A stretch of DNA of 40,537 nucleotides from Candidatus Nitrosotenuis cloacae (GTDB lineage Archaea; Thermoproteota; Nitrososphaeria; Nitrososphaerales; Nitrosopumilaceae): contig NZ_JAPPVQ010000018.1 in assembly GCF_026768455.1 (NCBI RefSeq), forward strand, positions 1 through 40,537, given 5' to 3'. The position numbers were made by a program, and so were the translations under genes. Below are positions 17,771 through 27,860 of this stretch, piece by piece (position 1 is the first letter of the stretch; the number at the start of each line of letters is the position of its first letter). Below the pieces are notes generated by a model, which did not search any database, was not told where the DNA came from, and worked only from the letters and a program-made list of their open reading frames with translations.

Positions 17771-18703
17771 TTATTGGTTTTTTATCTCGATTGTCTGGTT
17801 TCCAGCAACCTTTCTCTTTGGAATGGTGATGGTAAATGTGGTCTTTCCGTGAGCACTTGATGCCTCTATTGTTCCATCGTGCTGCTCTACTATCTTTTTG
17901 CAGCTTGCCAACCCCAATCCAGTGCCGGTCTGCTTTGTAGTGAACAACGGCTCAAATATCTTTGGCATGTCATCCTGTGTTATTCCGCACCCGGTGTCTG
18001 TGATCTGTATTGTCACCTGCTCTTCGCCGTCTGCCAGACTGATGTCTATTTGGCCAGAGTTATTCATTGCCTGTATGGAATTGATTATCAGGTTGGTAAA
18101 CACCACCTCAAGCTTTGTGAAGTCGCAAACGAGGTAGACAAAGTTCTTTGGTAAATTGATCTTGATATGATCCGGCTTGGCAATCTTTTCCACCGCCGAG
18201 ACGATTATCTCATTTATGAGCTGCGTCTCAAAGCTGAACTTGACTGGCCTTACAAAGTCAAGCACGTCTTCTATCTGGTGTGATATCCTATCTATTGCCC
18301 GGTTCAATCTGTTAAAGTAGATTATTCGATTCTCAATTGAGATCTTTGGCTTGGACTCCATTATCTCGACTGTGTTTTTTATTATCGACAACGGATTCCT
18401 CAAGTCGTGAGCAAGTCTTGATGCAAGCTCCCCTATTGCTGCCAGTCTTTCGGTGTTTGCAGTAGCCTTTGTGTGGATCTTTTCCACGTTTATTATGGAG
18501 TTGCATTCCATGCCAATGTTTTTGTGATGATTTCTGACTGCCTGCTCATCCGATGCTTCTAGGATATAATACAGTTCTTGGTCCTTGTGATTGTACAACA
18601 GATCGATTATTCTCACTTCGGTCTCGTCTAGCATCTTGGACGAATCTCTAATGCGCTGTAGTGATGACTCACTTACATGGTGTCCGTCAATGAATATTGC
18701 CAC
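17771..18703 (-). CDS. Soluble sensor histidine kinase with DUF4242-like N-terminal domain
   Basis: 310 aa, no membrane segment. Residues 1-78 resemble the small ferredoxin-like DUF4242/SCO4226 fold, including EASDEQAVRNHHKNIGMEC followed by INVEKI; relatives bind nickel or other metals. Residues 85-160 are the HisKA dimerisation domain with phosphoacceptor His99 (RLAHDLRNPLS). Residues about 185-300 are the HATPase domain: N box NLIINSIQAM, G1 DTGCGI, and G2 TGTGLGLASCK. It should autophosphorylate and pass phosphate to a response regulator, most obviously the one at 18788-19246, 84 bp upstream on the same strand. The DUF4242 assignment is by pattern and less certain than the kinase. Confidence 0.92.
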   Translation of the reverse strand: MAIFIDGHHVSESSLQRIRDSSKMLDETEVRIIDLLYNHKDQELYYILEASDEQAVRNHHKNIGMECNSIINVEKIHTKATANTERLAAIGELASRLAHDLRNPLSIIKNTVEIMESKPKISIENRIIYFNRLNRAIDRISHQIEDVLDFVRPVKFSFETQLINEIIVSAVEKIAKPDHIKINLPKNFVYLVCDFTKLEVVFTNLIINSIQAMNNSGQIDISLADGEEQVTIQITDTGCGITQDDMPKIFEPLFTTKQTGTGLGLASCKKIVEQHDGTIEASSAHGKTTFTITIPKRKVAGNQTIEIKNQ

Positions 18704-22216: not shown

Positions 22217-24304
22217 TTAGTTTTTAGTCAATCTCATTTTTGCGAGAATTGACTGTTTTTCTTTTTGATCTTGCGTTGCGGCTGGTTCATCGAGTTCCAA
22301 CTTGAACTTGGCTACCGTTGACTGTAGCTGCAGTGCTAGCTCTGCCATCTGATTTGCGGCATTTGCTATCTCGTGAGTTTGTGATGTCTGCTCTTCTACT
22401 GCTGCAGACGCCTCCTCCGTAGCTGCGGCATTTTCTTCTGAAACTGCTGCTATCTCTACTACGTCTTCTGAGACGGTTCTCACGTTGTTCATCTGCTCCT
22501 GCGTAGACTCTGATAGGTTTTTGACAGTCTCTGACACGTTTCTGATATTTATCGCAATATCGTGAAGTGTCTTTAGTGACATGTCGATTACCATCTTGCC
22601 TTGGTTTACCTCGTTTGCACTGGTCTCGATTTCTCCGACAACTTCTTGAGCGTGTTCTTGAATCTGTTTTAGCTTCGAATCGATCTCGTCTGATGATCTT
22701 GCGGAACTTTCAGCTAGCCGTCTTACCTCATCTGCAACCACTGCAAATCCACGCCCTGCTTCGCCTGCACGTGCTGCCTCAATCGCGGCGTTTAATGCAA
22801 GCAAGTTTGTCTGGTCTGCAATCTGCTTGATTACCTCAAGAACAGCGGTGATTTCGTTGGTCTTTTCTGCAAGTACTTTCACTCTTCGCGCCGATTCATT
22901 AGTCACCGCAATTATCTTGTTCATGCGCTCGCCTGCTTCTTTTGCAGACTCGGTGCCCTTGTCGGACAACATGCCTACTTGGTTTGATATGTCGACTGAT
23001 TCCTTTGCATTTGATGCCAATTCGTTCATGGACTTTGCAAGTTCCTCTACGGTGTGTTTTGATTTTTCTATTCGCTGTGCTTGTGTCTGAGAGCCCCTTG
23101 AAACTTGGTCCACCGTAGTTGCAATCTGCTGTATTGCTGAATTTAGCTCCGTTCCGGATGCAGAGAACTGCTGTGCGCTAGATGACACCGACTGTGATGC
23201 CGACTGCACATCGCCTAACACCCTCTTGAGATTCTCAACCATTCGTCTTTCCGAGTTGACAAGAGTTCCGATCTCATCTTCTGATTTTGACTCTGCAATC
23301 GTCACAGTCAAGTCGCCTTCACTGATCTTCTTTGTCACCTCTGCTGCAAGTCTTATCGGTCTAGAAATTGATCTAGAGATAAAGAATGCAAAGGTGCCAA
23401 CCAGTCCTGCAATTGTGCTACCGGTGATCACGTACATGTTTTGTAATGCGACGACTGGTGCTACGATCTCTGCTACGTCAAACTCTGCAATGAGCACAAC
23501 ACCCATGTCCGGCTCACATTTTGAGATGCCAAATATCGGCACGCCTCTGTAATCTGGGTATATCGATGCGGGTATGTCTCTGCCATTCTCGATACACTCT
23601 TTTGCTGGAAGTGTGTCCACCACTTGGGTGAATTCCAGCCCCTCCTTGAATCTGGACGGGCTGATCATCATTTTGTCAAAATTCACAAGATATGTCTCAC
23701 CGGTTTCTGCCAGTCCCTCTCTGTCGAGTAAAATTGAGTCAAGTGCTGGTACCGCTGTCTGTCCCATTAGGACACCTATCTTTTGGCCGCTTTGCGGATC
23801 AGCGATCGGCACTGCAGTCACCGCGATTCTATTTCCGTTGTCTTGGGAATATTCGCGGTATGACTTTTGTAGGCCGTTTTCGAAGATCTTGCTGCCAGAA
23901 TAGTCTTGACCTATCTGTGTTTTGTCTTGCGCATAAATGACGCCACCGTTAGTTGAGAGGATCCTAAAGTTGTGGTATCCGCTGTCTCCTCCGGTCGATT
24001 CTCTTACATTGCTAAATATTTTTTCAAGAACATCCGAATTGTGATCCTTGCTCTTTGCAACACCTACAATTTCAGGCATCTGGGCTACCTGGCTTAACTG
24101 CTGTATCCTAAAGTCGTTTAACTGCTCGATCGCCTTTGTCCTGTCGTTTGCAAGTGTCTTGAGCTGATCAAATGCCCTTTGCTGAAGTGATTCCTGTGAA
24201 TTGTTAAAACTAATCACAGATATTGCTACCATTGGAACCATTGCTACAACAAGGAACAAACAGATCAGCTTTCCATTCAATGACCTTGTCAGAATATTCT
24301 TCAT
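22217..24304 (-). CDS. Transmembrane methyl-accepting chemotaxis protein with Cache sensor
   Basis: 695 aa from the ATG at 24304; an upstream ATG at 24361 adds 19 poorly matching residues. First transmembrane helix about 11-34 ([15 protein letters not shown]), an extracytoplasmic Cache-type domain (about 35-285), second helix around [14 protein letters not shown], a HAMP linker, then a long coiled-coil signalling domain. The conserved hairpin tip is [17 protein letters not shown] followed by [16 protein letters not shown], encoded around 22715-22815. The tip contacts CheA and CheW in chemotaxis arrays, but neither gene is in this window. No C-terminal CheR-tethering pentapeptide is seen. It is divergent from the 24513 kinase across a 208-bp gap. 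Confidence 0.96.
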
Positions 24305-24483
24305 GTATTTTCGGTTTATGTGGAATGTGGATATAGACACGTGTTTGTTTACAAAAAACAATTATGATGTTATGATGATAAACAACTATGTCCTAAAGTA
24401 GGATGATAATACTTATGCATTCTGCCGGAATTGTATGACGCATCACATTTGACTACGTTTTGTTCATTTTTGTTTATCGCGCG

Positions 24484-24512: not shown

Positions 24513-26009
24513 GTGCTAATAAAATACAAACTATTGCTGTGCTTTTTGATCATAATTGGAATAACGGTTCCAAACGGAATAATCGGATACACAAAAGTGG
24601 ACCAAAGCCTGGCAAAAATCGAGGCGGAACTAGTCACCAGTCTTCAGGAGATGAAAAAGGCGTCCCACCTTGACAACCTGACTATTCACATAAAGTACTA
24701 TGACGAGGTGTTGACGCAGTCTGCAAGAAATTATGCGTTCACCGCAGATGAGAAGTGGCTTGATACATATTATGCGTCAGAGCCGGGACTGAACGCCCTG
24801 ATTCTGGAGGCGATAACCTTGGGAGGAAAAGACGACAAAGTCTTCTTTCAAAGTCTAAGCGATGCAAATACGCGCCTAACACAGCTCGAACACGAATCGA
24901 TTCGTCTTGTGATGGATGGAAGACAAAGTGACGCAATCGCAGTCTTGGAGAGCCCGGAGTATTGGAAGCACAAGCAAGTGTACAGAAATGCACTGGAAAA
25001 TTACGCCAAAAACAAGGGGTTGGAGTATGATCAGGTATTTGACGTATCCACAATCCATCTGGAAGCATCAGTACAGAGCATAAAGGAGGTACTAGTTGAG
25101 GCAGAAACATTGCTGTATGTCGGAATACCAATTGTGCTTTCCATGGCACTAGTGCTAGCCTATTATTTTTTCAGGTCTGTGGTGAGTCCAATTAGCCGCC
25201 TAAACAACGTAGTAGAAAAAATCTCACAGGGAAAATATGATGTGCCATTCCCGAAGCAAGGGCATGACGAAATAGGCGATCTTGGAAGACGTATGCAGTC
25301 AATGGTGCACTCGTTCAAGGCTGCCTTGGAGACGGAACGCCAGCTTGCAGTGGCTCAGGAAAAGCTAAAGAGCGAAAAGCTTACTGTGATTGGCGAGCTT
25401 GCGGCAAGAATTGCGCACGATCTGAGGAATCCATTATCCGTGCTCAAGAACATATGTCAGATTCTCAAGATACAGTACGGGCAAAAAGACCCCAAGATGC
25501 ACGACCATCTGACTAGGATGGAAAACTCGATTCAGCGCATGTCTCATCAGATAGACGACGTCCTGACATTTGTTCGGACAGTGCCAATAGACAAACAGAT
25601 AATTTCGCTCAGGGACCTGGTGGCCAAAGTGGTGTCTGACTCTGACATACCTTCTGATGTCATAGTGACAATGCCGAGCAACGACGAAAAGATAAACTGC
25701 GACGAGCAAAAAATGAGAACCGTTCTCTCAAACGTGATACTAAACGCCGTTCAAGCAATGGATGGGAGGGGGTTACTTACAATCAAGATTGTAGGATACA
25801 CGAAATTTGTAAACATTGAGATCTCTGATTCCGGACCTGGAATACCTGAAAAAACTCTGCCGTCCGTTTTTGAACCGTTGTTCACTACAAAGCAGACCGG
25901 CACGGGACTTGGACTGTCCAGCTGCAAGAACATAGTGGAGCAACACGGGGGCACCATCAATGTGACGAACAACCCTACCACGTTCACAATTACCTTGCCG
26001 CGGCTTTGA
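24513..26009 (+). CDS. Transmembrane sensor histidine kinase with HAMP domain
   Basis: 498 aa, GTG start. First membrane helix about 5-26, a mostly helical extracytoplasmic domain (27-195) and a second helix about 200-220. HAMP spans about 221-272 with the DEIG motif (HDEIGDLGRRM). HisKA follows with phosphoacceptor His302 (RIAHDLRNPLS). The C-terminal HATPase has NVILNAVQAM (N box), DSGPGIPE (G1) and TGTGLGLSSCK (G2). The sensor lacks obvious ligand motifs; its helical character resembles four-helix-bundle sensors of chemoreceptors. It is divergent from the Cache chemoreceptor. The kinase core is closely similar to the cores at 17771-18703 and 39720-40537. Confidence 0.95.
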   Translation: MLIKYKLLLCFLIIIGITVPNGIIGYTKVDQSLAKIEAELVTSLQEMKKASHLDNLTIHIKYYDEVLTQSARNYAFTADEKWLDTYYASEPGLNALILEAITLGGKDDKVFFQSLSDANTRLTQLEHESIRLVMDGRQSDAIAVLESPEYWKHKQVYRNALENYAKNKGLEYDQVFDVSTIHLEASVQSIKEVLVEAETLLYVGIPIVLSMALVLAYYFFRSVVSPISRLNNVVEKISQGKYDVPFPKQGHDEIGDLGRRMQSMVHSFKAALETERQLAVAQEKLKSEKLTVIGELAARIAHDLRNPLSVLKNICQILKIQYGQKDPKMHDHLTRMENSIQRMSHQIDDVLTFVRTVPIDKQIISLRDLVAKVVSDSDIPSDVIVTMPSNDEKINCDEQKMRTVLSNVILNAVQAMDGRGLLTIKIVGYTKFVNIEISDSGPGIPEKTLPSVFEPLFTTKQTGTGLGLSSCKNIVEQHGGTINVTNNPTTFTITLPRL

Positions 26010-26252: not shown

Positions 26253-26669
26253 TTGAGTTCCACAGAGATGCGAAAATCAGAATTTGGGCAAATCGGTCTC
26301 TTGCCGGATACGTATCTGACAATTAACGCACTGGACGCTCAATATGGCCCTGACTCTGCCGAATTTGGCAGGCAAATTGAGAATAAAATAGCCGGGGCAC
26401 TATCGCCACTAGTAAAGTCCATCTTGTCACAATCTGGGAATGACAACGTGCTGCATTTGATTCAAGTACTGGCATCAAAAATCGAATCTGCGCAATACTC
26501 TCACTATCTACGTGCCGGAAGAAATCATGTGGAAATCAAGCATGGTCTGGGACTGGAGGGAAACATGTTTTTCAAGACGGCATTTGATATCGTGTTGGGA
26601 CGTGGAATGTACCATGTCTTGGTGCAGGAAAACTCTATCTGCGTCGTGTTTCGAATAAGCTCTGCGTGA
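26253..26669 (+). CDS. Unrecognised soluble protein in the signalling island
   Basis: 138 aa, TTG start; an ATG at 26268 would shorten it by 5 residues. No membrane helix or signal peptide. The N-terminal half is helical (FGRQIENKIAGALSPLVKSILSQSG), and the C-terminal half has beta-strand patterns with HVEIKHGLGLEGNMFF and VLVQENSICVVFRI. I do not recognise the family. It lies between the transmembrane kinase and the soluble chemoreceptor-like gene, all on the plus strand, with 108 bp to the latter. A ligand-binding or adaptor role in signalling would fit the place but is not shown. Confidence 0.65.
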   Translation: MSSTEMRKSEFGQIGLLPDTYLTINALDAQYGPDSAEFGRQIENKIAGALSPLVKSILSQSGNDNVLHLIQVLASKIESAQYSHYLRAGRNHVEIKHGLGLEGNMFFKTAFDIVLGRGMYHVLVQENSICVVFRISSA

Positions 26670-26777
26670 TTGTGACAAAACCTGTCCATACAACTTTACT
26701 AACTAATAGTGGTCGCATTGCCTGTTTGTTTAAAACAACCATACAAAGTATTCTATTGAGAACGACCAAGTACTATC

Positions 26778-27860
26778 GTGCAACAATCCGAACTACAACA
26801 AGGAAAAAAATTTACATTAGAAGAGGTAGTAGAGTTTACCGATCTGATTGCTGAAAAGCTTGACAATGCAATAGACAAAGTGGACAACATAAATCACAAA
26901 ACTCATGTTTTATCAGTCAACGCATCCATTGAGGCAGCACGTGCCGGCACATACGGAAGACCTTTTGGAATAGTGGCCACAAACATGAGCGAGCTCTCAG
27001 AAGAGACTACAAAGATCACAGAAAAGATGAGAAATGACACTAAGGAAATTCTTCAAGTAGGGAGCCTGATCAAGGCACAATCAAAAGATTTTCGTGGAAA
27101 CAGATTATCTGATCTGGCGCTTGTAAACATCGACCTAATCGACAGAAATCTATACGAGCGAACTGCGGACGTCCGTTGGTGGGCGACTGACGGCAGCGTG
27201 GTGGATGCACTGACACAAAAGACATCCGAATCGTACGACGCAGTGTCAAAACGACTGGCTGTAATCTTGCAGGCGTACACCGTGTACTATGACCTCGTTC
27301 TGGCAGATGCCGACGGCAAAATAATTGCAAACGGCAATCCTCAATATTCATCTGTAAACACCATGGTTGCCGACTCTAGGTGGTTCTCAAGTGCGGTGAA
27401 AACAAAGAGCGGTGGCGAATTCGGATTTGAATCTGTACACCGATCTGGTCTTGTTGACAACAACTTGGCACTGATCTACTCCTGCGCAGTACGGGAGAAC
27501 GGCGACACCAAAGGCAAGGTGATTGGAGTCCTCGGCGTGATATTCAAGTGGGAATCGCTTTCTCAGACCATAATACAGCACACCCCAATAGATGACGATG
27601 AGAAGAAAAACACGCGAATATGCGTCACAGATGACGATGGAGTGGTGCTTGCAGACTCTGATAACAAGATGCTAAAAGACAAGATCCAGTTTGACAAAAA
27701 AACTAGTCTGTTCTCAGAAAAAAAGAACTACCTCTTTACCGACTATGGGGGCTTGGAATGTTGCATTGCGCACGCCCTCTCGCCTGGATTTGAGGGATAC
27801 TCGACTGGATGGCATTCTATAATAATACAAAACTTGGGCAGCATCAGCAAGAAAGCATAG
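26778..27860 (+). CDS. Soluble chemoreceptor-like protein: short MCP hairpin followed by Cache domain
   Basis: 360 aa, GTG start, no transmembrane helix. Residues about 25-92 form a shortened methyl-accepting signalling hairpin with the tip-like sequence LSVNASIEAARAG, then YGRPFGIVATNMSELSEET. Residues 108-136 carry a distinctive linker (DLALVNIDLIDRNLYERTADV, then RWW). Residues about 140-345 are a Cache-type sensor (YYDLVLADADGKIIANG, ADSRWFSSAVKTKSGGEFG, CVTDDDGVVLADS). The order is reversed relative to normal receptors, and the sensor must be cytoplasmic. Similar layouts exist in bacteria, so transfer is possible. Partners are not visible. Confidence 0.85.
   Translation: MQQSELQQGKKFTLEEVVEFTDLIAEKLDNAIDKVDNINHKTHVLSVNASIEAARAGTYGRPFGIVATNMSELSEETTKITEKMRNDTKEILQVGSLIKAQSKDFRGNRLSDLALVNIDLIDRNLYERTADVRWWATDGSVVDALTQKTSESYDAVSKRLAVILQAYTVYYDLVLADADGKIIANGNPQYSSVNTMVADSRWFSSAVKTKSGGEFGFESVHRSGLVDNNLALIYSCAVRENGDTKGKVIGVLGVIFKWESLSQTIIQHTPIDDDEKKNTRICVTDDDGVVLADSDNKMLKDKIQFDKKTSLFSEKKNYLFTDYGGLECCIAHALSPGFEGYSTGWHSIIIQNLGSISKKA

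Follow-up and report, generated by a model that had tools for sequence, protein, structure and literature searches.

A soluble chemoreceptor-like protein with an N-terminal receptor hairpin and a C-terminal dCache domain in Candidatus Nitrosotenuis cloacae

Cache domains are regarded as sensors for the outside of the cell, and a broad, conserved protein family in which a full dCache domain appears to lie in the cytoplasm, behind a chemoreceptor hairpin, raises the question of how such a protein could signal and to what. The member considered here is encoded in a stretch of 40,537 nucleotides from Candidatus Nitrosotenuis cloacae (hereafter the window), at 26778..27860 of the forward strand, where a preliminary description had placed a soluble chemoreceptor-like protein with reversed domain order. 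The reading frame lies where it had been described, running from a GTG start at 26778 to a TAG stop ending at 27860 and encoding 360 residues, and its relatives start at about the same site in the alignment. A TATA-like TTTAAAA upstream of the gene, at 26729..26735 (+), was read from the sequence as a candidate archaeal promoter element, and an AT-rich stretch resembling it occurs at another locus, L037.

Both Pfam matches of the protein exceed the curated thresholds, with MCPsignal (PF00015) covering residues 15-87 (47.8 bits against a cut-off of 34.6, E 1.9e-12) and dCache_1 (PF02743) covering residues 119-345 (51.5 bits against 45, E 1.3e-13). The MCPsignal match corresponds to profile positions 19-94 of 172, which include the hairpin tip, and the top sequence matches in the PDB are MCP hairpins with both arms covered (3g6b, E 1.5e-9). 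The same order is found across the family, MCPsignal being present in 62/62 and dCache_1 in 60/62 aligned members, and the proposed reversal, hairpin at the N-terminus and Cache at the C-terminus, is borne out. The protein does not contain a HAMP domain. In a 19-residue hydropathy scan the highest value was only 1.37, located within the Cache domain, and it is therefore concluded, as had been described, that there is no transmembrane segment and that the protein does not class with the transmembrane dCache receptors.

An AlphaFold model of the whole protein, built from an input alignment of 62 relatives, has a mean pLDDT of 89. Here an N-terminal arm (residues 14-57, 26817..26948, +), a tip containing NASIEAARAGTYG (residues 48-60, 26919..26957, +) and a C-terminal arm (residues 58-104, 26949..27089, +) could be delineated, the first from the model and its superposition on 3g67, 1qu7 and 6s1k, the tip from the register of the E. 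coli core unit alignment and from conservation, and the last from DSSP of the model, in which its helix runs straight on to residue 135 as the N-terminal helix of the Cache domain. The preliminary description had named structure prediction as a check on its MCP-type hairpin, and an antiparallel hairpin with a receptor tip was indeed obtained. Residues 12-117 superposed on 103-208 of 3g67 without a break (106 residues, 2.0 A), residues 10-108 on 342-441 of the 6s1k core unit (99 residues, 2.1 A) and the hairpin on 1qu7 over 96 residues (1.8 A); across 3g67, 1qu7, 2ch7 and the E. coli core unit, superpositions extended over 96-108 residues and were nearly gap-free. When the hairpin was modelled alone, receptor tips were the first Foldseek matches. 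The Z-scores of the hairpin, 10-11, are by themselves not decisive, as ESCRT-III and PspA hairpins score similarly. A straight-helix reading was also considered, the DSSP helix being unbroken through the tip in both models, and was rejected on the gap-free superposition on known hairpins.

The structural register aligns N48, E52, R55 and G57 with Tsr N381, E385, R388 and G390, and it agrees with the sequence match despite Z-scores that are not decisive for helical hairpins. Most tip residues are kept in the family (N48 in 61/62, E52 in 56/62, R55 in 57/62, and G60 and F63 each in 62/62). At residue 43 (26904-26906), the position of Tsr N376, 67/72 family members have Arg, His, Lys or Gln, His being found here. 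The same position is Asn in 19/19 neighbouring ordinary MCPs, and contacts to CheA and CheW may differ from those of canonical receptors for this reason. The arms comprise only about 45 residues each in the model, which leaves the Tsr methylation helices without counterpart; they were not found in the hairpin, which spans only the level of Tsr ~342-441 and matches 76/172 profile positions.

The junction (residues 105-138, 27090..27191, +), which includes the N-terminal helix of the Cache domain and contains RLSDLALVNIDLIDRNLYERTADVRWWATD, shows the highest conservation within the family, with a mean identity in the family alignment of 78%, as compared to 51% in the tip and 43% in the core of the Cache domain. 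D122, R123, L125, E127, R128 and D131-D138 are invariant in the 62 sequences, and the window protein keeps all positions of the near-invariant DRNLYERxxDVRWWATD that precedes the Cache domain. The linker segment 'IDLIDRNLYERTADVRWW', singled out in the preliminary description, is real and belongs to this most conserved part. Residue 130 (27165-27167) is Cys in 57/62 aligned relatives, in contrast to the Ala of the Nitrosotenuis and the fused Nitrosopumilus proteins. We infer that the junction serves as a dimerisation and signal-transfer element, with a role in ligand binding also possible. The dCache core that follows (residues 139-355, 27192..27842, +) was recognised by Pfam dCache_1 and by its fold, the dCache part of the model matching DctB with Z-scores of 20.6-22.1 and Tlp3 and PctA with Z-scores of about 18; across all matches, others included, the range is 18-22. 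An amino-acid-binding subgroup of dCache domains reportedly carries a conserved arginine-x-tryptophan-tyrosine pocket motif; in its place, when aligned by eye, the present family has xxWF throughout and no conserved arginine. Plausibly, the putative ligand belongs to the metabolites.

The window protein shares domains, order, length and the near-invariant junction with an unnamed family of soluble MCPsignal-dCache_1 proteins, for which a scan of genome contigs gave at least 581 confirmed loci. The best 80 of these relatives come from Planctomycetota, Verrucomicrobiota, Proteobacteria, Spirochaetota, Balneolaceae and ammonia-oxidising archaea, and the median length among the matches listed is 372 aa. 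On plasmid records, family genes are annotated as methyl-accepting chemotaxis protein; no relative was found on viral contigs, and phage records held nothing beyond weak partial hairpin matches. The literature searched contained no study of these proteins; the family is large and already annotated, yet apparently unstudied. Among 400 related archaeal genomes, the full-length gene is present in 53, and within the phylum full-length copies are confined to the order of ammonia oxidisers, across three of its families.

CheW is present in 53/53 of the genomes with the full-length gene (one copy being cut by a contig end), the gene is found in 0/335 genomes that lack CheW, and only 12 genomes, several of them incomplete, have CheW without the gene; the corresponding Fisher p of 8e-55 overstates independence because the genomes share ancestry. 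Within about 5 kb of relatives, CheW, CheA, CheB, CheR, CheC or CheD are encoded in Nitrosotalea-like, Nitrososphaera-like and other archaea as well as in Planctomycetota, Verrucomicrobiota and Balneolaceae, representatives being confirmed by Pfam. Linkage was counted from CheW, CheR, CheC, CheD and confirmed CheA, because the local CheB label takes in plain receiver domains and the CheA at L072 is an ordinary histidine kinase. The window gene itself lies outside the che cluster of its genome; a search for cheA and cheW elsewhere, suggested in the preliminary description, was positive, with CheW, CheB, CheA, CheC, CheD, CheR and a CheY-like receiver in one cluster on another contig (C11), adjoining a gene for a T2SSE ATPase. 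Apart from the soluble receptor, the genome encodes two MCPs, of which one lies in the window (22217..24361, -), a 714-residue protein in which Pfam identifies the canonical order dCache_1-HAMP-MCPsignal and which is a candidate array partner.

Hairpin superposition, linkage to che operons and co-occurrence with CheW therefore favour the earlier suggestion of an input to a receptor array or to CheA, and the reading as a cytoplasmic sensor is supported as well. We assign a probability of about 0.78 to the protein being a cytoplasmic chemoreceptor with a C-terminal sensor and without methylation helices, which feeds CheA via CheW and whose Cache domain signals down its N-terminal helix; what the Cache domain senses is most likely intracellular. 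Two chains would form a four-helix hairpin bundle contacting CheW and CheA, and a putative cytosolic small molecule, on binding to the Cache domain, would shift its N-terminal helix, a movement that would pass directly into the C-terminal arm of the hairpin and then through CheA activity and CheY phosphorylation to archaellum switching. According to the literature, Cache domains are mainly extracellular and send their output through the C-terminal helix alone (PMC4822843), and the polarity in this protein would therefore be reversed. Since methylation helices are lacking, the receptor probably does not adapt by itself; adaptation might come from neighbouring full-length receptors, or the protein might give a non-adapting report of the state of the cell. 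Counting against this reading, besides the altered tip residue and the position of the gene outside the che cluster, the very short hairpin would hold the Cache domain at a distance of about 7 nm from its tip, where it might crowd an array. If correct, this mechanism would mean that the N-terminal helix of a dCache domain can serve as its output and that about 6.5 heptads per hairpin arm suffice for kinase control, and it would offer a pointer to what motile ammonia oxidisers monitor intracellularly.

A hairpin this short, with no adaptation helices, and the family-specific tip residue would also suit an array member that does not drive CheA and instead tunes array size or gain as a cap, a spacer or a competitor of CheW, and the fused relatives described below, which retain one changed and one conserved tip, could be read in the same sense. 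We regard this as unlikely, however, as the Cache domain is conserved family-wide and most tip residues are kept. A connection that bypasses CheA is suggested by the histidine kinase at 24513..26009, encoded on the same strand as the soluble receptor gene, which starts about 0.8 kb downstream, and by a PAS-GAF histidine kinase that adjoins the homologue in Kuenenia; the protein could then be a sensor for the adjacent kinase. Nevertheless many relatives adjoin che genes and not a kinase, presence of the gene strictly tracks CheW across the 400 related genomes, and a HAMP domain and an N-terminal sensor region are already part of the kinase itself, which makes such a partnership very improbable.

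The preliminary description had further proposed a possible acquisition from bacteria, and its phylogenetic check went against this in any recent sense. In a tree of 74 proteins, archaea and bacteria are split by a single branch (99/96), recovered in 100% of 200 bootstrap trees, and the window protein falls in a Nitrosotenuis clade inside a broader, old clade of ammonia-oxidising archaea, a placement that the preliminary description had itself named as refuting this part; a second, quick tree comprised 94 proteins. From its place on the archaeal side of this branch, the grouping with Nitrosotenuis and the presence across the order, it follows that the gene is old in the ammonia-oxidiser order. 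It is true that the family is mostly bacterial among the matches listed in the genome scan and that the nearest bacterial relatives in that set are 47-52% identical, as might be expected of a recently acquired gene or of the decaying remnant of a transmembrane receptor. The tree nevertheless refutes a recent event, the reading frame is intact with genus orthologues 75-84% identical, and all relatives share the architecture, so that this origin is hardly credible. A deep transfer between archaea and bacteria, in one direction or the other, is likely. The closest bacterial relatives among the matches listed include MAGs of anammox bacteria and of nitrifiers such as Nitrosomonas (L045, L046, L049, L072), and anammox bacteria and Nitrosomonas share habitats with ammonia-oxidising archaea.

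In Nitrosopumilus-like genomes, two MCP-dCache units are joined in a single chain of some 710-745 aa (L063 2041-4170; also L117, L119-L125 and L136). In every case read, the first unit has Thr for the tip Asn at the position of Tsr N381, and the second unit keeps Asn. The two units form separate clades in the 74-protein tree, each paired with one adjacent unfused gene of another genus, which indicates a duplication that was later followed by fusion. The pair of neighbouring unfused copies in that genus (G037; L127 6182-7312 and 7400-8464), each grouping with one fused unit, likely represents an intermediate of the fusion. A receptor dimer places its subunits at different positions of the trimer, and an engineered single-chain Tsr is said to signal; the fused proteins are a natural asymmetric single-chain receptor and offer an asymmetric receptor dimer provided by nature. 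Natural soluble single-chain MCPs are known from a few microbes (PMC4692393), and an archaeal one with sensors and one changed tip is apparently unreported in the literature searched. A bolder view, possible but rather doubtful, would see in these proteins a whole class of cytoplasmic receptors that lack adaptation and whose Cache domains signal backwards via the N-terminal helix into a minimal hairpin, with single-chain versions in marine ammonia oxidisers that devote one tip to the trimer axis and the other to CheA and CheW.

The general kind of receptor is already known, as Helicobacter pylori TlpD, a survey of archaea that noted cytoplasmic receptors with C-terminal sensors (PMC9680633) and receptors with C-terminal ligand-binding domains of at least 17 types (PMC7390727) have been reported. 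TlpD, which is soluble with a C-terminal CZB sensor, has been reconstituted in vitro together with CheA and CheW (PMC6715182), and its hairpin is of half length (PMC12871147). It resembles the window protein in being soluble, with the sensor C-terminal to a shortened hairpin, and differs in having a CZB zinc domain instead of dCache, a longer hairpin and an extra N-terminal region; by analogy, it is the best experimental precedent for CheA control by a soluble receptor whose sensor is C-terminal. The closest structural match of the hairpin, Thermotoga maritima Tm14 (3g67), has 213 residues, no Cache domain and a hairpin about twice as long. The dCache fold is shared with the transmembrane PctA and Tlp3, the DctB sensor and the window receptor at 22217..24361; in these the domain is extracytoplasmic, flanked by transmembrane helices and has its output on the C-terminal side, whereas in the present protein it would lie in the cytoplasm and signal out via the N-terminal helix. 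An output domain followed by an intracellular Cache domain is also seen in YkuI, where an EAL domain precedes YkuI_C, a principally intracellular Cache family (PMC4822843), but there the output is EAL and the Cache domain is single. The Methylobacterium formaldehyde sensor MtpA is cytosolic and has no Cache domain according to its authors (PMC10613068).

Some minor observations concern an orthologue of the gene and its neighbours in the window. The orthologue of one Nitrosotenuis-related MAG carries an in-frame stop (L009/L039, ~1556), either an assembly error or a sign of decay. Just upstream of the window gene, the reading frame at 26253..26669 (138 aa) has no Pfam or NCBIfam match over threshold and is retained, among the compared loci, only next to Nitrosotenuis-type copies. 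A further histidine kinase of the window (17774..18703, -) resembles at its N-terminus an SCO4226-like nickel-responsive domain, a weak match just below the cut-off (E 3.8e-6).
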